64,000 nucleotides of DNA from Neckera pumila (lineage: Eukaryota > Streptophyta > Bryopsida > Hypnales > Neckeraceae), in assembly GCA_963969595.1 (NCBI GenBank), contig OZ018415.1, positions 18,538,001-18,602,000 of the forward strand. Reading direction: 5' to 3'. The notes below the pieces were generated by a model. It saw nothing but the letters and a program-made list of their open reading frames with translations. It was not told where the DNA came from and searched no databases. Shown here in pieces: positions 5,594 to 58,696 of the stretch; position 1 is the stretch's first letter; every line of letters starts with the position of its first letter. Made by a program: the position numbers and the translations under genes.

Positions 5594-6604
5594 TTGAATG
5601 TAGAGTATGGCCTTCCTCCCGTTAGCCAAGCAACTGTTAGTAGAATAAAGAAGGAGCACTTCAACAACGTCTAGATTAAGCCTGTTGGTAGCTCTTTTGC
5701 AAAGTGTACGAGTGCGACGAACTGTAGCAGTTCATCCTGAAATCACTAAAAGGGAGCTCGGATTTCGTGGAATTCATGAAGCAGCAAACTTAACATCTTA
5801 ATCATCAAGCATCCTGCCGTCGTCTGTATGCTTTGTGGCGTGAAGAATCTAGGAGGAATCCTCAAGAGATACTGTGTATAATTCATGACAAGATGGACAC
5901 AAGGAAGACGGCTCTCCCAAGAATGCGGGTGACGACAAAGGCCACACAAGGTTTGGGGCAACTTCCCATGAGTATAACTGGAATGGTGGCTCATGGTCAT
6001 GCTGATGGTGCGTATGCACATTATGCACCAGTCTGCTGGCCGGGTGACTCGAACTTCACCACTTCATCGCTCGTTAGACTGTTCAGGCAACTTGAAGGTC
6101 CACCAATTCGAGAGACGGGCGACCTCCTTCCCTATCCACCTGCAAATGTAATGTTCGACGCGCTACTCAAAGGAAAATCTTGGTGTATGGATGCCTTCAA
6201 GTTGATTCCACAGGAAGTTCGGCGTGGATTTAGTCCCCTTTCTAACAAGCTCTATCTTCAGCTTGACAACTCCGCCAAGGATAACAAGAACCAATACCTC
6301 ATGGCGTTCTTGTCTTTGCTTACTGCGCAAGGAGTCTTTAAGGAAATTCAGGTCGGTTTCCTTCTAGTCGGACATACTCACAAAGATATTGATGCGTATT
6401 TTAGCCACTTGTCGAAGGCTTTAAAGAGCAAGAATACATTTGTTGTTGCGGACCTCATGAAGTCAATCATGGAGTCCCAAGAATTGTCATTCATGCCGGA
6501 ATTCATCCAAGAGGTGGCGGATTTCAAGTCCTTCGTCAAGGATACCTGTGCAGTGGTACAGCTAAACTAATTGGTTTGGGAGAGATGCACTGTCGCAGCA
6601 CATG
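5594..6604 (+). pseudogene. Core of DUF7869-like transposase-type protein, broken
   Basis: This block carries the main domain. From 5,600 a frame reads GLPPVSQATVSRIKKEHF and stops at a TAG; a frame change then leads to CDEL, TAG at 5,725-5,727, a stretch ending MKQQT, TAA at 5,791-5,793, and then an open run of more than 250 codons. That run has the family-like landmarks RRLYALWREESRRNP, IIHDKMDTRKTALPR, LYLQLDNSAKDNKNQY and GFLLVGHTHKDIDAYFSHL. The spaced D (HDKMD), D (LQLDNS) and H/D (GHTHKDID) would fit an RNase-H-like transposase fold; that role is inferred. The frame ends at TAA 6,568-6,570 and resumes as LVWERCTVAAHG before the 6.6-9.9 kb block. At least four stops or frame changes make it a relic. 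Confidence 0.7.
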
Positions 6605-13260: not shown

Positions 13261-13481
13261 AGTGATTGTTGCACAAAATGAAAGTGGAAAATTGGTGGAA
13301 GATATTCAGACTGATATTTGCCTCACACTTCTTTTGTGTTTCATTGGGTGATTTAGATCTAAGCTAAGTTCTCTGTCGCTAACTTGTGAACCTTTTCAAC
13401 AACTAGAATTCGGCTCATAAAACCTACACTAAAATCTCAGACTAAAATGAAGTCGTTCAAGTTCGTTTACCCTCAGCATTA

Positions 13482-13542
13482 GGAAAATTTTCAGCCTTCA
13501 ATGAGGCTGCTAGTCTTGCACCCCCGTGATGCAAGTATGGAG

Positions 13543-13574
<32 letters not shown>

Positions 13575-13771
13575 AATGTGACATGGTTGCATTGCTGCCA
13601 TGTTAGAGCTGTCAGCGCCATGTTAGATTGAAATTTCAAAAAAAAAAAAATTTCAAAAAAAAAAAATTTCAAAAAAAAAAAGATTTTTTTTTCTTTTTTT
13701 TCTCTGTAATTGCACCCCACGGGTGCCGAAAATCACGTATTGGCAGTCTTGTTGAGGGCTGAATTTTTTCG
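13482..13771. mobile_element. MITE-like element M2, copy in duplication A
   Basis: The two ends are imperfect inverted repeats: the left end reads GAAAATTTTCAGCCTTCAA and the right end, on the other strand, GAAAAAATTCAGCCCTCAAC. The centre has long A and T runs around the words ATTGCTGCCATGTTAGAGC. It has no coding capacity. The homologous copy at 55,938-56,668 is interrupted by another element. A target duplication was not resolved. Confidence 0.6.
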
Positions 13772-14060
13772 TAATGTGACTTTCTAGGAGAGAGTTGGTG
13801 GCTTTCTGGAATGAGAAGTAGAAAAGAAAAAAAAGGAAATAGATGTGGCTTTTACTGTGACTCAAATGGGGCATCACCACGTTATTGACAGAAATGGCAA
13901 GAATCATCACTTTCACTGAGGTAACATTTCAAATAGTTTGAATAAGGGTTTAAGCATACTTAGTTCCTGTAGTTGAACTCTATAAACTTTTGCTGGGTCT
14001 TGTTGAGAGTCAGACTGCTGGTAACGAACTGCCTTACAGTCACAGAATGCGGCCAGTTAC

Positions 14061-14580
14061 TTCATATATTTTGCAATTGACAGAGAGCCGCAGACTCCAA
14101 ATTGGTAGCTGCCTCAGAAAACAATCCGGTGCGCCGGTTTTCATTCAAGTCAGGTACACGAACATCTATCCAGACAGTAAACCATGATAATTTGAGAAGA
14201 ACACTCGATTGAAGGTTCTTTTTATGGGGTTTTATTAGATACCTACTGAAATGCACCAATTACACAGGCATGCAAGTGGATTCATCGTAGTGCTCGCCAG
14301 CAAGTTCCAACAATCGACATGTATCTGCAATCATATCAGAGCAGAGGTGTCGAAGACACAGAAAGAATGCTAATGTACCACTCGTCCTTAAGCAACACGT
14401 CCTTAAGCAACTACTGCAGTTCATGATCAACTCAATTCTAATGAAATTCCTACAAACAGTAAATTCTAATTCCTGGGGCAGGGCAAAATCCTACGGAGGC
14501 AGGAACAACTTGAAGTCCATGAATAGTTTAATTACAGAGACAATGTATAAGGAGAGTGGCATACGGAGGTACATTTCTTC
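14061..14580 (-). pseudogene. Gene fragment of unknown family (duplication A)
   Basis: On the minus strand this part reads, with interruptions, ELEFTVCRNFIRIELIMNC and then CSDMIADTCRLLELAGEHYD before a stop. The same segment in copy B reads MIADTFRLLELAGEHYYE and stays open longer. A donor-like GTATCT follows a CAG near 14,243. The composition looks like real protein, but I cannot name the family. Stops and frame changes show it is not intact here. Confidence 0.35.
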
Positions 14581-14887
14581 TGATAAAAAATGACAACTGT
14601 CCAGGCATTTGACAGAGTTTTGCTTACAATGAGTGTTGCATGTATGTGCACGTCTAGTAATTCACCACCCCTTATGGTCAGCACTCAGCAGTTGCAGAGA
14701 GGGTTTAGTAGCCCGACTGCAAGAACTCAGTCTCTGAATAAAATGATTCCACCGCATGTCAGCCGGCAACTGAACAGTTGAAGAGTAGCACACACCCAGA
14801 TGTGAGGCAGGAAGATGTACAACATGAATCCACAAGCTCTTTAATACGCTACTGAACTTGTAAATAATTTCCAGTCTGTCAACATAC

Positions 14888-14955
14888 CGAAATAAACGCA
14901 GGCACTTCAATCTCCAACTTTGGCCTTCAAGCTCAGCATCCTCTTGGAAGAAGAT
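14888..14955 (-). pseudogene. Exon-like segment of the duplicated gene fragment
   Basis: A 68-base minus-strand segment sits between an acceptor-like TATGTAG and a donor-like GTATGT. It encodes FFQEDAELEGQSWRLKCLRL, and copy B at about 58,045-58,110 encodes the diverged VDAELKGQSWRLKCLRLF. Conservation of this reading frame between the copies supports real coding origin. The neighbouring minus-strand segment at about 15,408-15,473 ends in a donor-like GTGAGT. The family is not recognised. Confidence 0.4.
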
Positions 14956-16017
14956 CTACATATAGAAGCGAGTATGATTGCTGTTAAGTTACACGCACGC
15001 TGTTGGAATCCCCCTTCCTAGAAACCTAGCGGCCGTAAATAATAAACCTAGCTCCCAATTATAAAGCAATTGAAGTTGTTACTTTCTAATAATCCTCCTG
15101 CCAAATTTTTATCACGATCATTTTTCAGAGCACCTCCACTGATTGGGTTTTCCACTAATAAATACATGATGTGCAGCACCCCTACCTCGATGGATTGTTG
15201 ATACTCTGTTCATCTTAGCAGAGAGATTCCTTCTATGCACACTAGAAAGTGTGACCAGATTTATGATGTCCATCAAGACGTACATGCAGATCTGTGCGAC
15301 GTTGATCCATCTTCAGTCTTGACTCTCCTGAACATCCTCCAAAAACATCCGGGACAACATGATGAAAGATATGTAGATGCTCAAAACAAATGTTGGCGAT
15401 TAATTAGAAAATTACTCACTTCTTCGTGCAGAAGTCGAGTGTCTCGATCCCTGCTTTCACGAATTCGTGATTGAGCACCTGCTATTAAAACACCGTCGAT
15501 GGTCCAAAGTCAAGGAAATAGTTTGTCCCTAAAACCAGGTCATGTTTGGCAGAACGTACTAAAGTAATTTTTGCAGTTAAGAGACGAACAAAGAGCACAT
15601 CGTGATGATGAATTGTTTAATTTCTAGTTTAAATTTCACCAACAGCAGAGGATTTTACGGAACGAAAGCTTCTTGAAGCAGTTGATATGAGCATAGGCAA
15701 ATTTCTTCTTACCGTCCTCAATTACAGAAATTGCTTAAGTAAATTCATCTCTCTCATATCTAATTGAAAGAAAATGGCATTGCCTCTTATTCTCCGGTGC
15801 ACACAAAAACGATCCAAAATTTCAAAGTTGAAGTCGAATTCTGGCACAACAACAAACAGAAAACAGCAAGGGATCAATCTATATCGTTAACAAGGATCAA
15901 TTCTGCTCAAAAGCTATCACAGCAGGTAGAAATCCAATATCGTAAGCACGAGGATATATTCGTTCCAAGATCTATGAAAACAATTCATAGATCAACCGTC
16001 CAAGATCTACGCATTCA

Positions 16018-32443: not shown

Positions 32444-32692
32444 TTGGTGGCCTTGCCAGAGGAAGTGTGGAACTTGTCTTCCTTGACCACTCTAGATTTG
32501 AGTGGGTTTTTAAGCTTGGCAGCCTTGCCAAGGGAAGTGGGGAGCTTGTCTTCCTTGACCACTCTAAATTTATGGGAGTATTCAAGCTTGGCGGCCTTGC
32601 CAAAAGATGTGGAGAATTTGTCTTCCTTGACCAATGTAGGTTTGAGTGGGTGTTCCAGCTTGGCGGCCTTGCCAAAGAAAGTAGGAAACTTG
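32444..32692 (+). pseudogene. Plant LRR array, left part
   Basis: One partial and three complete 72-bp units (unit starts 32,471, 32,543, 32,615, with a fourth begun at 32,687) encode a 24-residue LRR such as LSSLTTLDLSGFLSLAALPR. The pattern LxxLxxLxLxxCxxLxxLPxxVxN is the plant-type LRR of TIR-NB-LRR-like resistance proteins. The array starts directly after the CACTA terminus and stops inside a unit (AACTTG) at the end of the 10-kb element. No NB-ARC or TIR domain is in the window. Other frames of the repeat are also open because 72 is divisible by 3; only this one matches a known repeat. Confidence 0.75.
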
Positions 32693-32810
32693 CACGGGGG
32701 GGTCACTCTGTATGGACCTTTGGATATCACATTGTCGTGTTGAGAGGAGCGCGCTTTGGGAATACGCAAAGTATCTGGCTGCAACTGGCACTAGTTAGTC
32801 ATTGACTTCA

Positions 32811-32900
32811 AATAATCTTCAAGTCTTCTAGTCTTCAATCAATAATCTTCAAGTCTTCTAGTCTTCAATCAATAATCTTCAAGTCTTCTAGTCTTCAATC
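32811..32900. repeat. Three 30-bp tandem units
   Basis: The unit CAAGTCTTCTAGTCTTCAAT plus CAATAATCTT is repeated three times almost without change and lies inside the left end of the 10-kb element, just before repeat R2 copy 1. It has no coding role. Confidence 0.85.
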
Positions 32901-32904
32901 TTCT

Positions 32905-34260
32905 CTTCGTTCTTCAGCCTTCAAACTCCTCCCTGTTGGCCTATCCTGTATTGGCTCTAAACGGGTCAGGATTTGGTCAGGTAGGTAATAAGAACCACGG
33001 GCCTCGGACGAGTAAAACGGGACAGCATAACACGAGATGCCGTCCGGATGATGGGCTCCTAAAATTCAAACTCCCGGTGACCAGCTCTAACTAGGCTTTA
33101 GCTTTCACCGTGAGAACAAACAGATTCGACCATGTGGATGATTAAATCCCACCGTCTCCACAAATACAAAACGAGGCTAAGCATTGGTTTAACCCAAGCC
33201 GCCCGCAACAACAAAAGTTTACAATAAAAGACAAGCCACAAGCCACAACACACAAATTCTCCTCCAACTCCAACTTCAAATCTTCACTCCAACTTCAATT
33301 TCAAAGCTAAACTTTGAATGAACGCCACCAATGCTCCACAACTCCAAATAGAATGAATGATGGCTCTTTGTAAAGCTAATACAATTTCCTATACTTTCAC
33401 CAAATTTTAACTCATTCAAATACTCTCTCCAATATCTATGATTGCCCAAAGTTTCGGCCTCTAAAAGTGAAGGCAGCATACCCTCCTTCACTTCAACACT
33501 CACAACTCACTCATAAATGCTCCAAATACAACAAATGATAGATATTTGAAAAGCTAACAAAATTCTCTACAACTTCTCAAAATTTCATCGCAAAATAAAA
33601 ATCTGTCCGTCTTCTGTGGTTGGTCAAAGTCTCAACCCCTTCAATTGGGAGGCAGCAGACCTTCCTCCACTCAAACTAGCACAAATCTCCACTCACAACT
33701 TCAATTCAAGCAAGAAAAGACCTCTTCCAATCACCACATCATAATACACAACTCCTCCAATTTTCATTGAAAAACCCTCCTCTCCAAAACATAACACAAC
33801 AACACAAGAAAAAAAACTCCCTCCTAAAACAATTGGTTTCCCCTCTTAACTCCCAACAAGAGAGAAGATGAAAAGTCCTCTTTTTTTATCACCTATCTCC
33901 ACTCTAACTTCACTCTATCTCTTTATCTTTTACTTTTCCATTCTATCTTCACCTTATCTTATCTCTAACTTCACTCTATCCACTCTATTTACGAAATAAA
34001 GAACTAAAATCCTCATATATCTAGTAGAGGTTAAAAAAAAACTAGAGCTCTAATTTCTTGAGACTCAGAAAAAAAAACCTCTAGTTCGACATAGTATAAT
34101 CTAAATAAAACACAAAGAAAAAGAATATCAAATGAGATGAAGCTACCTCAAATGACTTCAACTTCTTTATGATGCAACAAACATTAAAATCTATCTAAAT
34201 CATATATATATACATAATCTACATAATGTCTGCATTTGCAACACGACAACGTGCGGCTAA
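32905..34260 (+). repeat. Dispersed repeat R2, copy 1
   Basis: It begins in CTTCAAACTCCTCCCTGTTGG and contains CTAAACGGGTCAGGATTTGG, AAAACGGGACAGCATAACAC, GATGCCGTCCGGATGATGGG and CCCGGTGACCAGCT, all matched in order at 44.1-44.3 kb. It ends near TTGCAACACGACAACGTG, matched by GTACAACACGACACCGTG at 45.75 kb. Internally, a unit of roughly 180 bases (CTCCAAATAGAATGAATGAT...AAAGTTTCGGCC) is repeated. There is no LTR, coding frame or clear terminal repeat. Confidence 0.75.
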
Positions 34261-34440
34261 AGTTTTTTCTTAGGGGGGTGTTTAGATATTTTGAACCAAT
34301 TAAATGGTCCCTATTATTACCTAATTTTGGAATTCATGGTATTTTAGGGCCCCATACTATTACTTAGAATTTACAAATCGGGTCAATTTTCAATACCCTT
34401 ACTTCATTATAAAAAATAAAAAAGTGAAAAAGGCAATACC

Positions 34441-34750
34441 AAGATCAAAAGAAAATACCTTAAGCCCAAAAAAATGGGGAAGGAAGGTGAAAGAAAAGAC
34501 CTTAAGCCCAAAAAAATGGGGAGGGAAGAAGAAAAGAAAATACCTTAAGCCCAAAAAAATGGAGAGGGAAAAAGAAAGAAAATACCTTAAGCCAAAAAAA
34601 ATGGGGAGGGAAAAAGAATGAGTATTTTTTCCCTTTTCATTTTCTTGGTATTTTCTTTTCTTGTTCCCTTCCCTATATTTTTGGCTAGAGGTATTTTCTT
34701 TTCTTTTTCCCTCCTCATTTTTTCGGGGCTTAAGGTATTTTCTAACTTCA
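34441..34750. repeat. Inverted array of A-rich 50-bp units
   Basis: Four units of AAATACCTTAAGCCCAAAAA plus ATGGGGAGGGAA run left to right at 34,441-34,620. Two reversed units (CCCTCCTCATTTTTTCGGGG, CTTAAGGTATTTTC) follow at 34,640-34,745. The region can fold into a long A/T-rich hairpin. It lies in the non-coding left half of the 10-kb element. A plus-strand frame through the repeats is a by-product of the repeat length. Confidence 0.75.
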
Positions 34751-37378
34751 TTCAACCTCAATAAAATGGAAAGAAAAAACAATTGTTGATTTATTTAAGC
34801 CCACAAATGATTGCTAAGTACAAGCCCTCCTAAATACTTTCAAAATTCAAAAATTTGGAATGTAGCTTCAGTATTAAACTACTTCTAGCATGTGCAGATG
34901 TGCATATCGAATGATAATGTACACTCAAAAAAACAGAACCGACACAATTGCAAGCACATTCAATAATTACATGCATAACTTGAGAGTCTATAAACCCTAC
35001 TGTGAGTTTCAAAAACCAAAGGCCACAAATACAACACTTGCACTAGGAATATAGCACTCACATGCATCAATCAAAACTAGAACACAGAAACTGCTGCACC
35101 AGAATAACACATACAAATCCAACACAACGTGCACCTACAGAATTTAAAGTTCAACTTAGAATTGAACCACTGCCATCCAGAATTTTGAAAGCAAAGACAT
35201 CCAAAAAAACTGAGGCAGTTCACAACAACAAGTGACATATGAAACTATAATTAGCTTGAAATGCGTTTAATAACACAATTGAATGTGCAGAAACTACTGC
35301 AACAATACGCATAATAATACCTATAGAAATGCCAAGAATCTATACTAACTAAGAGCCGAGACAAAAACCCACCCAACTCCCAAATACTGTGCACTACTAG
35401 GCATCTGGAACAAAAGGTACACCAAAAAAACCCCACTAAACTGATACTACCGCCCATTACGCACGAGCTACAGGAGTGATCCACAAACAGAAATTCATGC
35501 ACTAGTTCACATCACGCGCCACCAACACCTTACAAGGCTCTCAACCATACTCCAGGATTCCTTGCACCTCCGACAAATCACCATTAGGTAACTTTGAAAG
35601 GGTGGCAGTGCAAAGATGGTCGGACAGTGAAGCTGAAAGCTCCAAGGATCTCAAAAAAATGCCCATGTTCCGGTCAAAGTTTTCCATCAAGAAGGCGTCA
35701 CAATCAAATTTATGATGGCGGGGAACACAATCAAGCTCAAACTAGGCCAACCAAAGCGAAGCATACTCCACCAATGATGCCACCAAACTGTATCATTCCC
35801 TGCAAGTAGAACCTGCATAAGGAATTGACTGGAGTCTTGTCGCACGGCCTCCACCTCCTACTGCAACCTCTTCCTACGGATCTACTGGCACTGCAAGTCC
35901 CTGCAAAACACCTGAAATCAAGTTGTCAATAAGGACAACTTCAACTTGTTCACCCCAGCCCAAGGGGATGCAACCAGCAATGGAACCCATGACACTCACA
36001 ATGTCAAACTACAGCAGTCCAGGCGCTAGTGACTGGTTAGTGGGATGCGCAGCAACTCAAGCGAGAGGGAGAACCAAAGAAAGAGAAGCAGCAATGCCAG
36101 CCAGCTGCAAACCGCAAACTAATCACAAAAATTCCAAAACAAGAAGGTCACACGGATTCACAGAAACGGGCAAGTGTTGGATTCACAACTACACACACAC
36201 TACAACAAGAAATGCCAAAGACAAAGCTACGAATCGTTCATGGGAGTAAGCTAGCATTTGTATTGCAAAAGAAGGGGGAAGAATCGGCACAAAGGTTTAG
36301 GAATTCAAAACCTGAATTTAAAGGCGCCCTCTTGGGCCAACAGCAATAGGGGCGTAGAGTCACCTTTGATACCTTGCATTCAAACCAGTGGATGCAAAAA
36401 TGTGTGAGAATAATTCTAGGAAATCATAATTTTCAAGGAAATGATGATTTCAAGGTGTGAAATGATTGCTAAACACAGGCTACATTGAAGGTTTAGGAGA
36501 AAAGCTAGCAGGCAGTTTAGGGCTGCTTCAATTACCTACATTAACAATTGGGATGTAGGAATGTGTGAGAGGAGACAACAACAATGATGAATTTCTAGAG
36601 AAGATGGCCTAAGCTATGAGAAATCAAGAAAGGATTGCACAACATGAAGAAAATACAACAAAGAAGGAAGGGGGGTACGGCTCCAAAAGCCTGCATTCAA
36701 CAAAGGATTCAGGCACGTGTGAGACAAATTTGGAAAAATCTTATTTTGACGGAAAAGATGGGCTGAAGCTTTGAGAAAATGCAGAAATCATGCAAAATCA
36801 TAACAAATAAATCCATAAAAATGTTACCTGACTTGGAGTAAATTCGCCACACATGTGAGTTCCAGTACAACTCAAAATCCTTAATTTTCTGGAATTTCAT
36901 GAATCTGCCAATTATAGCCTAATTTTGCCACATGACTTGAAAATTGCGGTGAAATGACAACATTGTCAAGACTTGGCATGTATGGTCAGTACTTTCAAGA
37001 GAAAGTGAACTACAACAAAGAAAAAAATTCAAGGCATATAGCTGGTTTGAATGCAGGAATTCAAAGAATTCAGCCACATCGTCATCTGTATCCCACAAAC
37101 GAACACAATAATCTAGGTAACCTTCTTGGCCAAAATGCTGGAGACATGCAGTCGTCATATCTGATACTCGATGGTTGCAATATGACATTTGAGATAGTAC
37201 CTCAACTATGGTCTAAAACAAACTTGTTTAATGCATCTGCATCCTTCGGGTCCAAGGTATACACAAAATTTATAGAATTGAAGGACAATGTCATAGTGGT
37301 GATTATGCACTCAATGTCAACCCATTTGGTATCATTGCGGTCATATTTGTATTTGCTCAAACCTGTAGTTTTGCTAAA
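34751..37378. other. Left internal part of the 10-kb element, no gene
   Basis: Only short frames without recognisable motifs are present. The sequence CACTACAACAAGAAATGCC near 36,197 resembles a CACTA end, but no partner end was found. From 36.3 kb there are several copies of (A/G)TGTGTGAGA-like words (e.g. AATGTGTGAGA at 36,400 and 36,562), each after a ...GCATTCA or similar word, suggesting a weak local duplication. Confidence 0.3.
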
Positions 37379-39190
37379 CTACTGCAAGAGTACTTGAATT
37401 GGGCTTTGGATTGGGTTCTTTTTTCCAGCTACTGCAGTCCAATTTTTCAAGTCCACCAGATTGCCGGTCTTGGAGGCGCTTTTTTTCCCTCTCTGCCTTT
37501 TCCCTGCAACTTTCATAGTGGATGCTTTAGTGGTGCTTGAACGTTGGACAAAATGAATGCCACAATCACTTCTAAGACCAAGAAGGCAAGTATTGGAACT
37601 AGCGGCAGCAGTCATATAATCATTGTGATTGTTGAAGTACATGGAGTGCTTCACATGAGTTAGCTGGTCTTTCGAAAGAAAAGGATTTCCATTCAATTGC
37701 AAGACAAGCGTTGATTTAAAAATTGTGTGACCAACATATTCAACTACCGGGAGAACTTTGGGTGGAATCAAGCGAGTAGAAACTTGGGCTTCATTGGTGT
37801 TCATGACATCAACTAGGGCATCACGAGTTTTGTCCTCCAAGCAGATTTGCAGGCACACACCATCATCAACAACCTCATCTTCAAGGTCTGAAACTGCTAC
37901 ACTGAGTAGAAGGGTACCGACACTTTGGGATGATTCAGCCGCTGCAAGTGTCTCCCGCATCACTTCATTGTCACCATCTTCACCACACAAGGGATTTGCA
38001 GCAGGAATGTAGGACATGAAGCTGGGGTCCTCCTTCTCAGTGACCTACGGCTTCTGGAACCACAACTTGCGGGCAGGTGTTGCATAGACGATAGGCGCCA
38101 TGTTCAGCCCTTGGAGAGTACACTGCACCCAAACAAAACCTTCCTTCAACGCATCCACAACTTCAGCATTTGTACTTATCAAACTATAGTTGCTTAATTC
38201 ACAGGCAGTTTGATCCTCTACCAACGGATGTAGCTTAGCCCAAATATTCTCCATCTTGTTATTGACTTTATTGAATTTAAGACCATTTTCACTATACTCG
38301 ATGGCAGACAGTTGGTTCAAAGTGTTTGCTGTGTTCACAAGTTCATGGAAATTGTATGCCCGTTCCGCCCCATTCATTCCACCAATCTTGGAAAAGAAAA
38401 TCTTGCATGAATCACTCCCTGTTAAGTGTAGTGGCACAGGTAGATGGGCGTATCTGTTCCTGAAATGAATCATCAGTAGCATGGCAAAACTACAGGACAA
38501 CTGAATGTCAATAAAACATTTTTTGCTCACAAAGTGATGAGCTTCAACAATTTGCTTGGAATTTCCAAGAACCCCATGATCACCGTGCTTAAGCCATAGT
38601 TGCCACAAACGGAAGAAAAAAGAAACTTTTGAAGCCAGCACAATTCTATTGCACAAACCTGTAGTTGAAGAACAGAAAATATCTATATACTCGGCACAAA
38701 TTTGCAGGTATGTCTCAGTATCCAAGCAATGTTCTCTATTTACATTTGGAGCCTCACGTAACAATTTCAAGCATTGCCGGACCTTCAGCTGACAAATTCG
38801 TTGGGCTGAAGCCCAATTCTGCCTATCCTTGCGGTCCACATCTTCCTGCTTCAACCCATGTTCATCGGATGTGAAGTGATTGTAAACCAACCCCAAATGT
38901 TCAAGCGTGCAGACATCTCCACCTAACTGCAACACACAAATTGCAGACAAAAGAGGGTTAATCAATTTTTTCCCATTATGAATGTAATTTTGGTCGTGTA
39001 GTCCGCGGACATTTCCTTGGTCATCAAGTGCCGAGGTCAGATTCCACCCCTCCCAACCAATAGTTAGACGGGTTCCCATGTCACTTCTGAAATCCTATAA
39101 CAAAAGCTGTCTTCTGCGAGAGTCTTCATTGCTGGCATTGCCTACAATAGGACCCACGGCTTGCAAACATTCTTTAGCCCACAAATCATT
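37379..39190 (-). pseudogene. Transposase-like protein of the 10-kb element, C-terminal exon
   Basis: Read leftward, one frame runs from about 39,190 to 37,379 with only two TAGs (39,095-39,097 and 38,045-38,047). Landmarks: DLWAKECLQAVGPIVG, GWEGWNLTSALDDQGN, YIHNGKKLINPLLSAICVLQ, LEHLGLVYNHFTSDEHGL, DRKDRQNWASAQRI, VSFFFRLWQLWLKHGDHG, FRNRYAHLPVPLHLTGSDSC and KIFFSKIGGMNGAERAY. The late motif resembles the acidic end motif (GSDxxE.FF) of large transposases, but the expected Glu is Lys here (codon AAG at 38,402-38,404, one G-to-A from GAG). The tail has a Lys/Arg-rich segment (KRQRGKKSASK). I recall similar proteins in ferns, mosses and charophytes. Confidence 0.7.
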
Positions 39191-39380
39191 AATAATTCCC
39201 CATTACCTCCTCACCTACGCTGAATCAAAACAATTACATGTGTAGCATGCAACCAATACTAAACCAGGCAACTTATCATGCATTGGATTCACAACTATCA
39301 CCCTAGCAAGTCCCCCTACTTTGTTGTTTCGGAAGGACTCCAAAATCATGTTGTACCCTTCCTCTCTAGGACCAACAAGC

Positions 39381-40076
39381 AGTTTCTACATGTGAGGTTT
39401 CTAAACCCTTTTCCATCAGTACAAAACTAAACACATCTCCTATGCCAAAATGCGCTAGTAATTTCTCCCCACCCACAGTTACAGATGTGGCAAGATGCGG
39501 CTCACTATATCAAACAACGCCAGACATGGAATCAACTAGCAAGCTTCTTACTGCATATCTGAGCCCATTATACAAACAGTGAGAATCTCAATAGCTCCAA
39601 CACATGAAACCGTTCAAGGCATTTGCATCTACACTTGAGGTAGAAGTCGTACCTGCATTCCTCCCTCCTGAAGCACCACTAAATGAAGAATGTAAATCTG
39701 GCTGATATGAGTGGGCACTGGTACTTCCGGATCTGGTAGGCCTGCCCCGCCTTCCAGTTAGCAACCCCGTGGATTTGGACTGCACTACCTGGGCTTCCTT
39801 AATAGCCATCATATGCTTTGAACCTGCTAAGTGATTTAGCAAGTTCGTTTCCAAATTCTTCTTTGGAGGGCACAAACTCAACATATTGCGGCAATATGGA
39901 CATTTAACCTTAAACCAAAAGCTTTTTGGGTTCAAAGTTTCTACATTGCTAACCATTGTGAATGGCAGCACTCCTGCAGCAAGCCCCAAATTTACATCTC
40001 CCAAAATGGAAACACCCTCGTCAATGAGTTCCTTGTGTTTCAATAGAGACAAGGGAATTGATTTCCCTTTGCCGAC
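39381..40076 (-). pseudogene. Transposase-like protein, middle exon with BED-like finger
   Basis: After acceptor CTGCAG a frame begins VGKGKSIPLSLLKHKELIDE. It contains CPYC followed by a NLLNHLAGSKH segment, a C2H2 arrangement resembling a BED zinc finger, then a Ser/Gly/Arg linker (GRRGRPTRSGS) and GFMCWSY. TGA at 39,588-39,590 and TGA at 39,510-39,512 interrupt CWSY-stop-DSHCLYNGLRYAVRS and SGVV-stop-YSEPHLATS; both fall where Trp would fit. A frameshift near 39,370-39,390 leads into EEGYNMILESFRNNKVGG and VNPMHDKLPGLVLVACYTC before the next exon. A BED finger suggests terminal-repeat binding. Confidence 0.6.
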
Positions 40077-40330
40077 TGCAGACTAGGGATGATCAAGGAA
40101 GCTCACGTGGTGTTTTCAGCACCAATTCTTAATGTGATGCGTGCTTGCAAGATGACCGGTTATGAAGTTTGAAAATAACTTCACAATTACAATATTGTTG
40201 TGGATGCTGCTGTCTCCCCCGTAGTCCTTATGACATTCTAGACAGTGCACCTTTATGATGCCAACAGCATCTTGATCCCATGATTCAGAATCCATTCATT
40301 GTCTTCTAAGGAGACTTCTTTCAATTCCCT

Positions 40331-40846
40331 TCACAGCCACTCCACTTGCCTAACGTATCGTTGCATGACGTCTGCTGAGATGAGGAGGGATTTCCAGGAA
40401 ACCCCGCTATCGTTGCCGCCATTACCATTGCCGCTAATCCTCGAGGAGCCCGGAGGTTCATCTGAAATCTGAATTGCTTCCTCTATATCTGGAAAATCCG
40501 GTACCTCAAAGCTGCTAGTAGGATGCACCGTAGGCTCTGCAGGAACAATTGTAGCTGCGTCCATTCTCCGGTGCTTAGGGGGTTGCGGATTGGCACCGCC
40601 CACAAGAATGACATACACATCTTCAAAAATGTCATTGAGCGCTTCAATTTTCTTCCGTATTCTGCATCCATCCTCAGCATCCCAAAATTCAAAGGGCTAA
40701 TCCAGGACATTGGCAAACTCCAAGCGCTTCCTCAATGACAAGAAAGATATGCCATCCCCTACTTTGACCTTCCCAAATAACTCTGAATCCGCACCCTCAT
40801 CTTCTAGGGTCCAAAGTTTTATATATCGCTCTCTTGGCGCTGCCAT
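40331..40846 (-). pseudogene. Transposase-like protein, N-terminal exon
   Basis: ATG at 40,844-40,846 opens MAAPRERYIKLWTLEDEG, followed by FGKVKVGDGISFLSLRKRLE and, after one TAG at 40,697-40,699, PFEFWDAEDGCRIRKKIEAL in the same frame. The stop sits at VLD-stop-PFEFW, where Trp would fit (TGG to TAG). The rest is a Pro/Ser/acidic linker (TSSFEVPDFPDIEEAIQISD) ending at TGA 40,331. The true exon end is probably before that stop. Transcription from the right agrees with the telo-box-rich upstream region at 41.6-42.3 kb. Confidence 0.6.
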
Positions 40847-40949
40847 GAAGCCGCCCCAAGTATTTGGAACAAAATTGCATAAAAACAAGAACCCTAACGC
40901 AGATTGCAAGAATCTGTGGCCATGAGCTACCCTCGGGGAGATCACTTAG

Positions 40950-42725
40950 AGGGTCCATTAAGAACTGTATGCATTAAGATTTTGGACTCCCTATCTTATG
41001 TTCTAAAATTTAAATAGAAGGAAAAGAAAAAAATATGAGTAGATTCTCCTACTTTAAAAGTTTATGTCTTGAATTATTGATAATTTTATTAATTAATTAT
41101 AATTAGTTACTAATTTTTGAAGTAAAAAGATACATTGCAAAGCTGAAAATAACTTTCACACCCCTGTTTTATATAAGAAAAAATTGTACAAAAAATATAC
41201 AAAAAATTCTCCAAAATAAATCTCTATTGAAAGTTCATATTCATTGAATATTGATGCAATGGTCATCTAAATGTATTCTCTATTTGAGTTGAGAACCATG
41301 CCATTTTAGTTCATTTTTCAACCTTCTCTAGAGATCATTTAATATGGTATTTGAATTGGGAATTTTTGGCAATAGAAACCTATAGCAATTGTTAAACAAT
41401 GCTCAAAATTATAAGTCAAAATCCTATTTCATTAAAAAGTAAATAGGAGGGCAAAAAATCACTTGAACACACGTGGTTAGTTATAGATACACTAAGTGAT
41501 CTCTTTGGGGAGCTGCCAAGCATGCACAAAAATCTAGACCCCAACAAGTACACCCTCTCAAGAACCTTAACCCCACACAACGAGCACCCTAAACCCTAAA
41601 CCAGTACACTCTAAGCAGACCCCTCACTAAATAGCCTAAATCCTAAAATTGCAAGAAAGAACCACTACACCCTAAGTGCAATCCTCAGTCAACAGCCTAA
41701 ACAATAAAAATCGCAAGAAAGAACCAGTACACCGTAAGCAAAATCATAACCCAACACAACGAGCATCCAAAACTACAAGAATGAACTTATACACTTTAAA
41801 CAAAACCCTCACCCTAAATCCCAAACCCAAGAACCACAAGAGTGAATGTTGCACACCCTAAATAGAATCCTAATGCCACACAGCAAGCAAGAGAAGCCGC
41901 AAGAGGGAACCAAAAACCTTCAACATCAGCAGTGAGATAAACTGCAAACCCTCAAAATTTGAACAACAGAATCAGTCACAAGCAGGAGCATAGCAAACCA
42001 CCAAAATCGCCTCATGAATCCCACTCAAACTGAACCCTAAACCCTAACGTAAACCTGCAAAAACAAAGCGCCTCCAGAATGTTTGCACAACCTAAGCACA
42101 TTGAACCCTAACACCACACAACGAGCAAGAGAAGCCGCAAGAAGGAACCAAAAACCTTCAACATCACCAGTAAAGTAAACTAAAAACCATCGAAACTTGA
42201 ACAGCAAAATCAGTCACAAGCGAGAGCACAGCAAACTGTCAAAATTGCCTCATAAATCCCACTTAAACTGAACCCTAAACCCTAATGTAAACCTGCAAAA
42301 ACAAAGCACCTCCAGACTGTTCGCACAACCTAAGCGCATTGAAACCCTGGCAGCAAATTCAACACCCCACCTGCAATACAGGCTGCCTGCAAACGCCCCC
42401 ACACGTAAATTCAAGGCAAGCTAACTTACGGAGGCAATGGAATCCTAAATAGTATGAAGGCACAGAAGTCCCCATTCATCCATCTTCATGATCGCTAAAG
42501 AGCACTTTTTCATCCAAATCAGTAGGTCAGCTCACTAGGAATTGAACCTACTCACATGAAATACCTAGGATCTATATATGAGAGGGTACCTTAGATCAAC
42601 TTTTTTTAAATATGAGGTATTATTGACCTATGTATCTTACTTCAAAGTAAAAATACACTAATTTATACACCGTATATTATCCCTAAGTTTTTCTAATTTA
42701 TTGACCTTATGAATTAATCCCTCCC
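40950..42725. repeat. Upstream region of the transposase relic with telo-box words and tandem repeats
   Basis: 41.0-41.5 kb is plain AT-rich DNA. From 41,585 the sequence holds repeated words with AACCCTAAACC (41,588, 42,034, 42,273) and CGCAAGAAAGAACCA(C/G)TACACC units spaced about 85 bases. Then a 238-base unit is repeated twice in tandem: GCAAGAGAAGCCGCAAGA occurs at 41,887 and 42,125, and the following 230 bases match closely. This could be a repeated promoter or leader of the minus-strand gene. Confidence 0.7.
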
Positions 42726-42776
42726 TATATTATATTGCATGTTGTTTGCTAAAAATTTCTAAGTGACCCCCCCGTG

Positions 42777-43660
42777 GGAACTTGTCTTCCTTGACCACTC
42801 TAGATTTATGGGAGTGTTCAAACTTGGCGGCCTTACCAAACAAAGTGGAGAACTTGTTTTCTTTGACCACTCTAGATTTATGGGAGTGTTCAAGCTTGGC
42901 AGCTTTGCCAAAGGAAGTGGGGAACTTGTCTTCTTTGACCACACTTAAATTGAGTGGGTGTTCATGCTGGGCAGCCTTGCCAGAAGAAGTGGGGAAATTG
43001 TTTTCTTTGACCACTCTAGGATCATGGGAGTGTTCAAGCTTGGCGGCCTTGCCAAAGGAAGTGGGGAATTTGTCTTCCTTGACCACTCTAGGTTTGAGTG
43101 GCTGTTCAAGCTTGGCGACCTTGCCAAAGGAAGTGGGGAACTTGTCTTCTCTAACCACTTTATATTTGGGTGGCTATTCGAGCTTGGTGGCCTTGCCAAT
43201 GGAAGTCAGAAATTTGTCTTCTTTAACCACACTCAAATTGACAAGGTATTCAACCCTAAACCGCCAAAAGCTTGGCAGCCTTGCCAAAGGATGTGGAGAA
43301 CTTGTCTTCTTTGACCACTCTAAATTTGAGTGGGTGTTCAATATTAGGCACTTTATCAAAGGGTGTGGGGAACTTGTTTTCTTTGACTACTCTATATTTG
43401 GATGGTTGTTCAAGCTTGGCGGCCTTGCCAAAAGAAGTGGAAAACTTGTCTTCCCTAACCACTCTCAAATTGAAAGGGTGTTCAAGCTTGGTGGCCTTGC
43501 CAAAAGAAGTAGGGATCTTGTCTTCCTTGACCACTTTAGGTTTGAGTGGGTGTTCAAGCTTGATGGTCTTGCCAAAGGAAGTGGGAAACTTATCTTCCTT
43601 GACCAATCTTGATTTGGAAGAATGTTCAAACTTGGCGACCTTGCCAAAGTAAGTGGAGAA
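42777..43660 (+). pseudogene. Plant LRR array, right part
   Basis: Twelve 72-bp units start at 42,779, 42,851, 42,923, 42,995, 43,067, 43,139, 43,211, then (after a disrupted unit) 43,299, 43,371, 43,443, 43,515 and 43,587. Typical units read LSSLTTLDLWECSNLAALP and LSSLTTLGLSGCSSLATLP with PKEVGN linkers. The unit at 43,211 degenerates at LKLTRYSTLNRQK and shifts the frame, so the array is not one intact ORF. It joins in phase to the left part at 32,692. The array ends near GCCAAAGTAAGTGG with no visible C-terminal domain. It most likely derives from a TIR-NB-LRR-type receptor whose N-terminal half is missing. Confidence 0.8.
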
Positions 43661-44029
43661 GTTATATCATTTGAATCAACTCAATTTCAATGGGCGTGTT
43701 TCCCAACTTCTTTAGGAGAGAATTTCAGGTGCATACCTTCAATTTAGATTCTTTTGTGGATAAATTGTCCAAATTTGGAATCCTATATGTTGATTGAATT
43801 GTTGTCACAAACTTCTTTGGCTAGTCTTGAAGACAGTTTTTTCTACTTTGAAGGTGATCATCATGATGGATTGTCTTGTAATTGATGCAAAGTGACCCTT
43901 ATAATTAGGCCTTGCTTTAAGGCACAAGCCGCTGTCGTGTAGAGAGAGTTTGCCTCGGGAAATCGCAGAGATTTTGGCTGCAATTTGAAATGGTTTAGGA
44001 CTAGGGTGTGTAACGGTCGCGTCGAATCT
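43661..44029. other. Downstream of LRR array, nothing recognised
   Basis: Sequence between the last LRR unit and repeat R2 copy 2. It may include the former 3' end of the LRR gene, but no frame or splice site pattern is convincing. Confidence 0.3.
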
Positions 44030-45770
44030 TGTACCTCAAACCTTGAATCTTCTACTTAGAACGTCAAATCTTCAACTTCACCTTGAAACTGCTCCTTATT
44101 GGCCTATCCTGAGACTGACTCTAAACGGGTCAGGGTTTGATCAGGTAGGTGATAAGAAACCACAGTCCTCGGATAGGTAAAACGGGACAGCATAACACAA
44201 GATGCCGTCCGGATGATGGGCTCTTAAACTTTCAAATTCCCGGTGACCAGCTTTAAGAACCAAGCTTCACCGTGAGAACAAACAAGTCTCGACCATGTGG
44301 GCAATTAACACCACTTTGTCACCCACGACACAAAATGAAGCTAGCAATGGTGTAAACCAAGCCGCCCGCAACAACAAAGTTTACAAAGCCACAAGCCACA
44401 CACACACAAATCTTCAACACTTCCTCCAATCTCCAACTTCAACCTCCAATTCGTAAACGGAACTTTGGGTGAGTGTCTCCAACGCTCCACAGATTCAAAT
44501 GAGATGAGTAATAGCTCTTTAAAAAGCTAGCACAAACTCCTACTTCTCCTCTAAGTTTCAGACAATTCTAAAACTCTGTCCAACTTTTATGGCCATCCAA
44601 AGTTTCGGCCTTGAGAAAGAAGGGTAGCAGACCCTCTTTCACTTCTTCACTCACAACTCACTCATACAAACTCCAAATAGAACAAGTAATATCTTTATAA
44701 ATAACTAACACAAATTTCTACAATTTGTTGAAATCTCAAACAATTCTAAAACTTTGTCCAATATCTATGGCCATCAAAAGTTTCGGCCCTGAGAGAAAAA
44801 GGACAGCAAACCCTCCTTCACTTCCACACTTACAACTCACTCATAAGAACTCCAAATAGAACGAATGATATCTTCATGAAAAGCTAACACAATTTTCTAC
44901 ACTCCCTCCAAATCTCATTGTAAATCAAAAACATGTCCGTCTTTTATGGCTGATCAAAGTCTCTGCCTTTTAGTTTCAAAGGCAACAAAAACCCCTCCAC
45001 TCAAACTAGCACAACTTTTGATTCACAACTCCAAATCAAGCAAATGAGATCAATTTAAAAAATACACACCATGATACACAACTTCTTCAAATTTCATTTT
45101 AAAACTCTTCAAACTCTCAACACAATAGCTCTCCAAACATTCGGAATCCTCTCTAAAACTCATAATGAGAGAGAAGATCCATAGTGTCCCCTTTTTCCTC
45201 ACCCTATCTTCATTATAATCACACAAACAAGTGGGGTCCGCCCCTAACTTACTCTTCAAGGCTACAACAACAATAATTGAGCACTCACTTAGCCCACAAT
45301 TATTTTTTTATCTTTAACTTAGAAGGAAATTCATTCAAGTTCACCGAGAAGGCAAACTATTTGAATAATTTCCTCATACTACTTTACAAATACAAAACTA
45401 ATGCAAGAAATCACTCCAATTATGGAATGAAAAACTCAAACTCAACACACGTCTAGTAGAGGTAAAAAAACTAGAGTTCTAATCAAAATATCACTCCATC
45501 TACAGGAATTTGAGAAAATTCAAATTCACGCTCCGGTTGAGATTCTTCATCTTGAGACTCAGAAAAACCCTCCAGTTCAACATTCTAAACCTAAAGTAGA
45601 AAACAACTATCATTTATGGAATTTGATGAAGCACTTAGGCAGATTCGTCTTCTTATATAGATGTCATGCACCTCAACAAGAAGGCGTCACCTTGAAGCTA
45701 CTCGATAAAACATATAATATATATTTTTACACTATGTACGAATGTACAACACGACACCGTGGACATTGTT
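44030..45770 (+). repeat. Dispersed repeat R2, copy 2
   Basis: This is the second, longer copy of the repeat at 32.9-34.26 kb, in the same orientation. It shares CTAAACGGGTCAGGGTTTG, AAAACGGGACAGCATAACAC, GATGCCGTCCGGATGATGGG and the ending GTACAACACGACACCGTG. The internal unit around CAACTCACTCATA...CTCCAAATAGAA...AAAGTTTCGGCC is present three to four times at about 44.48, 44.65 and 44.83 kb. This copy lies outside the 10-kb transposon, so R2 spread independently of it. Confidence 0.75.
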
Positions 45771-54832: not shown

Positions 54833-54950
54833 GCTTTTTGGACCAAACATACAAATCAACAAATAGTTGTAGAAAAAGGTGTTGGCAAAGGATCCAATGA
54901 ATAATGCATTACAACCATTTGTCATCAATAACATATTTGAGTTTTCAAGT

Positions 54951-55558
54951 GAAAAGACAGTTCTATCTATACACATGGGGTGGTAGGAGTAGTAGAATTA
55001 TCCATGTGGGATAAATAAATTTGAATTTGTAGTTTCTCAAGCACTCATAGTTAAGTCAAAAACAAAGAATTGTATTAAAAGTAGAATTTCAGACCTCATT
55101 TAGGCATAGTAAAATAACTTTTCTCAAAAAACTTTGAACTGAAAAAAGTTGGAAAATAAAGATAGGTTTCACCTCCAAAAATCCGTTTGTCATTTTGAAT
55201 CTCCAATCAAAAGTTATGGACAAATTTGAGAGAGGGGGTGGGAATGGACATTTTCTTTAACATTTTTAAAAATCCTCTCTCAAGATTTGTCCATAACTTT
55301 TGATTGGAGATTTTAAATGCCAAAAGGATCTTTGGAGGTGAAACTTATGTTCATTTTCCAACTTTTATTAGTTCAAAGTTTTTTGAAAAAAGTTATTTTA
55401 CTATGCCTAAACAAGGTCTGAAATTCTACTTTTAAAACAATTTTTTGTTTTTGACTTAACTATAAATGCTTGAGAAACTACGAGTTCAAAATTATTTATC
55501 CCACATGGGTTGTTCTACCTCCTACCACCCCATGTATATATATAGAGTTGTCTTTTCA
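54951..55558. repeat. Large foldback (inverted repeat), arms about 285 bp
   Basis: The left arm (54,951-55,240) begins AAAAGACAGTTCTATC, then CATGGGGTGGTAGGAG; the right arm (about 55,270-55,558) ends CTCCTACCACCCCATG, then ATAGAGTTGTCTTTT. Inner arms match as well: GATTTGTCCATAACTTTTGA pairs with TCAAAAGTTATGGACAAATT. The loop is only about 30 bases (around GGACATTTTCTTTAACATTT). Arms are imperfect, with small bulges. It may be a foldback transposon or a hairpin-RNA source; no coding frame is shared. Confidence 0.85.
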
Positions 55559-55937
55559 AACAAAAACACAAAACATGAATGAAAATCACATCAAAGTGAT
55601 GCATTCAAGCATAGAGATAATTAATCTCTATTTTGATTGCCATATGAATAAGTTTGCTATTTGAATTACAGCTTTAATTCAAAGTACTTAATTTGTTGTT
55701 AATATCAATGTGCATCTGCGACTTTGTAATTAACTCGGGCCCCTTCTTGGATTCTGACAAATTTCGCCAAGTGTCCTTGTAGTTACTGATTTGGTGTGGA
55801 ATATACCACACCATTTCATCCCTCGGATGAAATGATGTGATATATTCCACATCATTCCGTCCAGGGAAGGCAGTCGCAATGACTGCTACTGAATGTAATG
55901 AAATGAAGTCGTTCAAGTTTGTTTATCCTCACCATTA

Positions 55938-56668
55938 GGAAAAATTTCAGCCCTCAACAAGGCCGCTAGTCTTGCACCCTCGTGATGCAATTATGGAAAA
56001 AAATAAAAAAATAATAAAAATTGAAAATTTGAAATGTGACGTGGTCGCATTGCTGCCACGTTAGCGTTGTTAGCCCCACATCAGATTGAAAATTTTTAAA
56101 TGTTTTTTTTCAAAATAAAAAAAAAATCAAATCAAATCAAATCAATTTTTTTTTCTTTGTAAGGTAAAAGACCCCGTTGCAGTCAAATGGCCCATGATGG
56201 ACACCTAATGACCCCATTGTGTTTTTTCAAACCACAATCAATGCCTTACATAGTAGTTATGGAGTAATTAGTGACCTTGATAGGTACTTCCAACTTTTTA
56301 GTGTAAAAAATCTTTATAAAAATTGATTTTTTAGGTCTTTCATGTTTGAAAATGTTGTGACTACATTAGATAGGAAGATGACCATATTGGATCCAGATTT
56401 TGTTGGTCATGTGGTGACCTATAGCCCCTTATGGGCTGATCACTTCAAAAATTCAGAACTAATTCATACTTGATCCAAAAAATATAATTTCAAATGTGCT
56501 CACTGTCTCTTACACTTATCTTCATGTAGGAAAAAAAATTGAAAAATTTCAGCAATGACATGAGGGTAGACTACAAAGTTTGACCACAATGGGCTATTTA
56601 CCTTAATTGCACCCCGCAGATGCTGAAAATCACGCATTGGCAGTCTTATTGAGGGCTGAAATTTTTTG
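55938..56668. mobile_element. MITE-like element M2, copy in duplication B
   Basis: Left end GGAAAAATTTCAGCCCTCAA; right end, read on the other strand, CAAAAAATTTCAGCCCTCAA. The interior contains an AAATCAAATCAAATCAAATC microsatellite near 56,126 and is split by the TA-flanked element at 56,162-56,603. Confidence 0.6.
56162..56603. mobile_element. 442-bp TA-flanked element nested in M2
   Basis: The ends are inverted: AGGTAAAAGACCCCGTTGCA on the left, and on the other strand of the right end AGGTAAATAGCCCATTGTGG. It is bordered by TA on each side (56,160-56,161 and 56,604-56,605). Copy A of the segmental duplication has the undisturbed site CTCTGTAATTGCACC at 13,702-13,716, so exactly one TA was duplicated. 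TA duplication is the hallmark of the Tc1/mariner superfamily; with no coding capacity this is a mariner-type MITE. Confidence 0.85.
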
Positions 56669-56907
56669 TAATGTGGCTTTCTAGGAGAGGGTTGGTGGCT
56701 TCTGGAATGAGAAGTAGAAAAGAAAAAAAGGAAATAGATGTGGCTTTTCCTGTGACTCAAATGGGGGCGTCACCACGTTATTGACAGAAATGGCAAGAAT
56801 CATCACTTTCACTAAGGTAGCATGTCAAATAGTTTGAATTAGGGTTTAAGCATACTTAGTTCCTGTAGTTGAACTCTATATCTTTTGCTGGGTCTTGTTG
56901 AGAGTCA

Positions 56908-57250
56908 AAAAGAGGATTAGACTAGGTTTTTTAGAATGGAATTTTTGGACGTATATGAATAAATTATGAGTGTTCAAAGTGTTGAAAACAAGTATTTCCA
57001 ATAATTATCAAACCTAGGCTCTCATAAGTAGAGATTGTACATTTTTTTGACAAGAATATGTAGAAGTCGATTTTTCTTTTCTTTTCTTGAAACACATGGA
57101 CAATTTCCATTGTAGAAGTCGATTTCAGAAAAAGGTCACAATAGTTGGAATTACTTGAAAACAACTCCAACCCATGCAACTTAGTCTGCAATATGAAGTG
57201 TGCAAGAGGTTGCAGGTGAGAGAGCACTTGTCCACTGGAAATGGAAGTCA
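56908..57250 (+). mobile_element. R4 insertion in duplication B
   Basis: This segment is absent from copy A, where GAGAGTCA joins GACTGCTGG directly (about 14,006-14,020). It is related to 49,966-50,220. AGTCA occurs at both edges (56,903-56,907 and 57,246-57,250), a possible 5-base target duplication, although four extra bases (GGTA) follow on the right. No terminal inverted repeat is obvious. Confidence 0.6.
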
Positions 57251-57303
57251 GGTAGACTGCTGGTAACGAACTGCCTTACAGTCGCAGAATGCGGCCAGTT
57301 ACT

Positions 57304-57576
57304 TCAGATTTTTTGCAATTGACAGAGAGCCGCAGACTCCAAATTGGTAGCTGCCTCAGAAAACAATCCGGTGCGCCGGTTTTCATTCAAGTCAGGTAAA
57401 CGAACATCTATCCAGACAGTAAACCATGATAATTTGAGAAGAACACTCGATTGAAGGTTCTTTTTATGGGGTTTTATTACATACCTACTGAAATGCACTG
57501 ATTCCACAGGCATGCAAGTGCATTCATAGTAGTGCTCGCCAGCAAGTTCCAACAATCGAAATGTGTCTGCAATCAT
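57304..57576 (-). pseudogene. Gene fragment of unknown family (duplication B)
   Basis: The minus-strand frame reads MIADTFRLLELAGEHYYEC, then VESVHFSRYVIKPHKKNLQ, and continues into what is probably intron text. It is the better-preserved copy of the fragment at 14,061-14,340. The adjoining exon-like text at about 58,045-58,140 (HEFVRA-stop-IKTLDYFLQVD, then ELKGQSWRLKCLRLF) lies further right on the same strand, so the order matches copy A. Confidence 0.3.
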
Positions 57577-58696
57577 ATCAGAGCAGAGGTGTCGAATACA
57601 CAGAAAGAATGCTAATATACCACTATTGGCGCGTCCTTAAGCAACTACTGAAGTTCATGATCAACTCCATTCTAATGAAATTCCTACAAACAGTAAATTC
57701 TAATTCCTGTTGCAGGGCAAAATCCTACGGAGGCAGGAACAACTTGAATTTCATGAACAGTTTAATTACAGAGACAATGTATAAGGAGAGTGGCATACGG
57801 AGGTACATTACTTCTGACCAAAAATGACAACTGTCCATTTCACAGAGGTTTAGTAGCCGGACTGCAAGGAATCAGTCTCCGAGTGAAATGATTCACTGCA
57901 TGTCAGCGGGCAACTGAACCGGGAACTGAACAATTAAAGAGTTTGAAGAGTAGCACACACCCAATGTGAGGCACGAAGATGTACAACATGAATCCACAAG
58001 CTCTTTAATACGCTACTGAACTTGTAAATAATCTCCACTCTGTCAGCATACTAAAATAAACGCAGGCACTTCAATCTCCAACTTTGGCCTTTAAGCTCAG
58101 CATCCACTTGGAGGAAGTAGTCGAGAGTCTTGATCTATGCTCTCACAAATTCGTGATTGAGCACTTGCTATTAAAGCCATCGATGGTCCAAAGTCAGGAA
58201 ATCTTTTGTTCCTAGAACGAGGTCATGTTTGGCAGAACGTACTAAAGTAATTTTTGCAGTTAAGAGACGAACAAAGAGCACATATGTAGTGATGATGAAT
58301 TATATTCTGGTTTAAATTTCAAGAAAAACAGAGGATTTTACAGAACGAAAGCTTCTTGAAGCAGTTGATGTGAGCATTAGAAAAGTTCTTGTTACCATCC
58401 TCAACTACAGAAAGTGCTGAAGTAAATTCAGCTCTCTCATATCTAATGGAAAGAATATGGCATTGCCTCTTATTCTCCTGTGCACATAAACGATCCAAAG
58501 TTCAAAGTTGGTGTTGAATTCTGGCACAACACCAAACAAAAATAGCCAGAGATCAATCTGGATGGTAAACAGGGATCAACTCTGCTCAAAAACTATCACA
58601 ACAGGTAGAAATCCAATATGGTAAGTACAGGGATATATTCGTTCCAAGATCCACGAAAAAAATTCATAGATCAACCGTCCAAGATCTACGCATTCA

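Follow-up and report, generated by a model that had tools for sequence, protein, structure and literature searches.

A segment of 10,084 bp interrupts an array of 72-bp leucine-rich repeat (LRR) units in a 64,000-nt stretch of DNA from the plant Neckera pumila (hereafter the window, to which all coordinates refer). The segment has perfect inverted ends, is flanked by two copies of the same eight unit positions, and contains the relic of a transposase with P-like relatives. The resulting proposal, to which a probability of about 0.85 is given, is that a cut-and-paste transposon whose transposase shares its catalytic core with the P-element superfamily entered the LRR array of a non-seed land plant with an 8-base stagger and then died. 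There is nothing unusual in an LRR relic that carries a transposon; what raises the interest of the finding is that the transposon very likely belongs to a branch of the P-element superfamily that is found in plants and differs at its front end.

Insertion site and target duplication

The LRR units break off and resume at the borders of the segment (Table 1), as the initial annotation had described, and the perfect 15-base inverted ends reported there were found again. In the window, the end sequence CACGGGGGGGTCACT occurs in two copies only, even when up to two mismatches are tolerated (expectation from shuffles, 0.01), one on each strand at the two borders, and no inverted identity continues past base 15. 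The array edges next to these ends, GAAACTTG on the left and GGAACTTG on the right, are alike at 7 of 8 bases. Counted along the 72-bp unit, the left part of the array stops just before phase 33 and the right part begins at phase 25, an exact 8-base overlap for which the chance is 1 in 72. The evidence for an insertion is this exact overlap together with the inverted ends. The target duplication can be read from a single locus, without an empty allele, because the insertion sits in a periodic array. An 8-bp target site duplication (here from one insertion) and terminal inverted repeats (here 15 bp and perfect) are both features of the P-element superfamily.

After removal of the element and one 8-mer, the array comprises about 15.4 units, in agreement with the single array of about 15 units proposed at the outset. 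The accompanying claim that this excision restores the unit holds for the junction, where both phase and LRR reading frame run through. The initial ten units of the rejoined array are in phase; the frame is then shifted by a 16-bp insertion, and the last unit contains a stop. Even with the element taken away, the LRR array is therefore a relic. The clean cut-out is a reconstruction on paper only. The single flank mismatch had been given a G-to-A direction, which cannot be polarised: the base is G in 12 and A in 3 of 15 unit sites, a set that contains the right flank but not the left.

The transposase relic and its relatives

The longest open piece of the relic, an open reading frame (ORF) of 349 codons, matches no Pfam family at a limit of E 0.1. 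A search with this ORF returned 100 relatives at E 0.001, and a follow-up search from one of them, P0082, returned 89, overlaps included, giving 169 distinct proteins in total. Organism names are attached to 18 of the 169. Of these, 16 belong to two liverworts, Riccia sorocarpa and R. fluitans, and the other 2 to a fern, Adiantum nelumboides; the window ORF and the fern protein P0150 are 35% identical. The precomputed Pfam column is empty in all 169 relatives, and no relative was confirmed in viral and prokaryotic contig collections.

The positions expected of a DDE transposase are well conserved in this family: D346 in 72 of 73 relatives, D465 in 63 of 67 or, as an alternative second position, D467 in 65 of 68, and E707 in 52 of 55. 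A D(2)H motif is formed by D512 (65/66) and H515 (64/65). The DDE triad and a [C/D](2)H motif after beta-5 are given as the mark of the P superfamily in one source (PMC8230255), and both are present in the relatives. In a structure model, a relative is predicted to have an RNase H-like fold with an inserted helical domain as in the P transposase, with 13% identity to the Drosophila protein over the fold alignment. The profile TNP-like_RNaseH_N (PF21787) matches 3 of 66 members, at best with 21.7 bits and hence below the cut-off of 24.6. A D-x-x-N motif (D566 in 61/65, N569 in 62/65) resembles D444/N447 of the fly enzyme by eye only. By analogy with Drosophila, the family might use DDE chemistry and an insertion domain that perhaps binds GTP.

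The Drosophila P element (6P5A, 6PE2) carries a THAP domain, whereas none was found in the plant relatives. Residues 1-83 of the relative P0110 are ubiquitin-like in a structure model, and two Cys/His motifs were recognised by eye in the relatives' N-terminal region. With a permissive limit of E 10 (in practice, most matches weaker than about 0.1 are filtered out), the THAP profile matched none of 8 relatives selected for their long N termini, and at E 0.1 it matched none of 66 members, many of them partial; this leaves room for a very diverged THAP domain. It appears moderately probable that liverworts and ferns, besides animals, carry an old P branch with a ubiquitin-like domain and two Cys/His motifs instead of THAP, in which the 8-bp stagger has been kept and of which the window element would be a dead member.

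The window copy itself is matched by its relatives from 40,837 down to 37,205, in pieces (tblastn). Its alignment to P0105 skips from residue 133 to 382 at about 39,379, a loss of about 248 residues that takes in the first catalytic Asp. At the remaining catalytic positions, D465 is replaced by N, D467 is kept, D512, the D of the D(2)H motif, has become N, and E707 has become K. Stops occupy 17 positions when all 169 relatives are used: 7 lie at sites that are mostly W or Q in relatives and 4 at sites that are mostly R, most, but not all, of which fit single C-to-T changes on either strand (TAG stands at one R site), while 2 stand opposite mixed residues and 4 were seen against gaps only. Some of the stops may fall in introns. 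This copy is unable to encode a working enzyme; the element ends are intact. The proposed history is that a transposon cutting with an 8-base stagger inserted into the tandem LRR array, which would duplicate 8 bases of one unit, and that a P-like enzyme may have made this insertion; the copy would have died afterwards by the deletion, the change of the third catalytic residue to Lys and the build-up of stops. With its perfect ends, the element could in principle be mobilised by an enzyme from another copy.

The P element is a model for hybrid dysgenesis and for transposon control in animals. A plant P branch with a different front end, if true, would help to tell the ancestral parts of the enzyme from the others, and annotators of plant genomes would gain a family that Pfam misses. 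Among the matches listed, no publication dealt with P elements of land plants, most subscription papers lying outside the coverage of the search. A general classification reportedly gives P elements as present in plants, and a first report is not claimed. The part available of a study on Ceratopteris contains a repeat table with no row called P (PMC6890710).

Objections and alternative explanations

Several observations weaken the case for the proposed insertion of a P-like transposon. Across the same 15 unit sites, the flank 8-mer has a mean identity of 0.80, and 49 of 105 site pairs agree at 7 or 8 of 8 bases; the flanks are alike anyway because the LRR units are alike, so that the 7/8 match alone is little proof and the overlap length is the independent fact. 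Similarly, the window contains 57 pairs of exactly matching inverted 15-mers at distances of 2-20 kb (overlapping registers counted, many AT-rich), and inverted ends by themselves are therefore weak evidence, although the CACGGGGGGGTCACT pair has a G+C content of 11/15 and is positioned exactly at both array breaks. The interior of the element is a patchwork with a repeat-family segment and a fold-back, which makes nesting plausible. Finally, a scan for 14-base inverted pairs (up to one mismatch, no duplication rule) gave 4 matches, a count that is uninformative because shuffled sequence yielded between 0 and 13. The initial annotation had taken phase, ends and duplication to support each other; this stands for the exact overlap of 8 and the inverted ends, whereas phase and flank similarity are not independent.

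The patchwork interior, with at least one other repeat family, speaks for the possibility that the relic is nested in an unrelated larger element that owns the 15-bp ends. This is unlikely, since no inner pair of inverted ends with an 8-bp duplication stands out. A scan for ends of 10 bases with an 8-bp duplication, one mismatch being allowed in each (left ends in 32,601-37,200, right ends in 40,840-42,860), returned a single weak pair besides the outer one, with 1, 0, 0, 0 and 0 in shuffles. All 4 matches of the 14-base scan are registers of the outer pair, and no inner pair was found at that length with up to one mismatch. An inner element could have lost its ends, but the scan of 8 open frames within the element revealed no further transposase. 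These results favour, and do not prove, that the gene and the 15-bp ends belong together.

Assignment to the hAT superfamily is very improbable. This superfamily, with Hermes and Ac, likewise has 8-bp duplications and short inverted ends, as does the window element, but the fold comparison leans to P and away from hAT. Transib/RAG1 elements, unlike the window element, make 5-bp duplications, and their fold match is far below that of P. Among P-like elements, the inverted ends measure 31 bp in Drosophila P, compared with 15 bp in the present plant element, and 13 bp in zebrafish, according to PMC7776569. The zebrafish element, THAP9/Pdre2, combines these short ends with an 8-bp duplication in the same source, as the window element does; it is a THAP-bearing animal element, and the likeness concerns ends and duplication only.

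That no insertion took place, and that rearrangement or misassembly joined two LRR arrays to unrelated sequence, is hardly credible: the similarity of units would account for the flanks, but each break in the array coincides to the base with a perfect inverted end, the two parts overlap by 8 bases precisely, and the interrupting sequence contains a transposase relic. The insertion proposed in the initial annotation is supported, the junction being explained by a DNA transposon with terminal inverted repeats and an 8-bp target duplication.

Repeats and other features of the window

Table 1. Features of the interrupted LRR array and the inserted element (window positions).
Feature	Position	Strand	Basis
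Left part of 72-bp LRR array, 3.5 units	32444..32692	+	TRF; LRR Pfam matches of ORF through array; phase
Left target duplication copy, GAAACTTG	32685..32692	+	array phase
Inserted DNA transposon, 10,084 bp	32693..42776	.	CACGGGGGGGTCACT search, array phase, inverted-end scans
Left terminal inverted repeat, 15 bp	32693..32707	+	CACGGGGGGGTCACT search
Sub-segment by left end, about 75% like 43,937-45,763 outside the element in aligned blocks	32735..34254	.	repeat comparison; outer limits by eye
Fold-back (palindromic) repeat, arms up to 82% complementary	34441..34743	.	self-comparison
Transposase relic, P-element-like, internal deletion at about 39,379, several stops	37205..40837	-	tblastn, 10 relatives, then all 169
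Longest open piece of relic, 349 aa: D(2)H region, insertion domain, third catalytic position	38045..39094	-	ORF list, relatives, alignment
N-terminal part of relic, homologous to relatives' N-terminal region (ubiquitin-like fold, Cys/His motifs there)	39456..40837	-	tblastn; fold of a relative
Right terminal inverted repeat, 15 bp, perfectly complementary to left	42762..42776	-	CACGGGGGGGTCACT search
Right target duplication copy, GGAACTTG	42777..42784	+	array phase
Right part of LRR array with about 12 units, frame shifted by 16-bp insertion near 43,255, in-frame stop in last unit	42777..43660	+	TRF, LRR Pfam matches, phase

The sub-segment by the left end is probably another mobile element nested inside. 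It and its second copy, which lies to the right of the LRR array, have imperfect CAC...GTG inverted ends of 15 bases (CACATTGTCGTGTTG / CAACACGACAACGTG in the first copy), and no matching target duplication was seen around either. Near the left end of the 10-kb element, 32811-32900 holds a 30-bp tandem repeat in 3 perfect copies, and near its right end, 41543-42350 holds tandem repeats with periods of 61, 62 and 238 bp and CCCTAAACCCTAA-like motifs.

In the window's outer regions, 13445-16017 and 55901-58696 form a long direct repeat in blocks of up to 93% identity. A near-palindrome of 637 bp with 85% self-complementarity occupies 54936-55572, and an ORF at 5794-6567 contains DUF7869 (Pfam E 4.4e-40).
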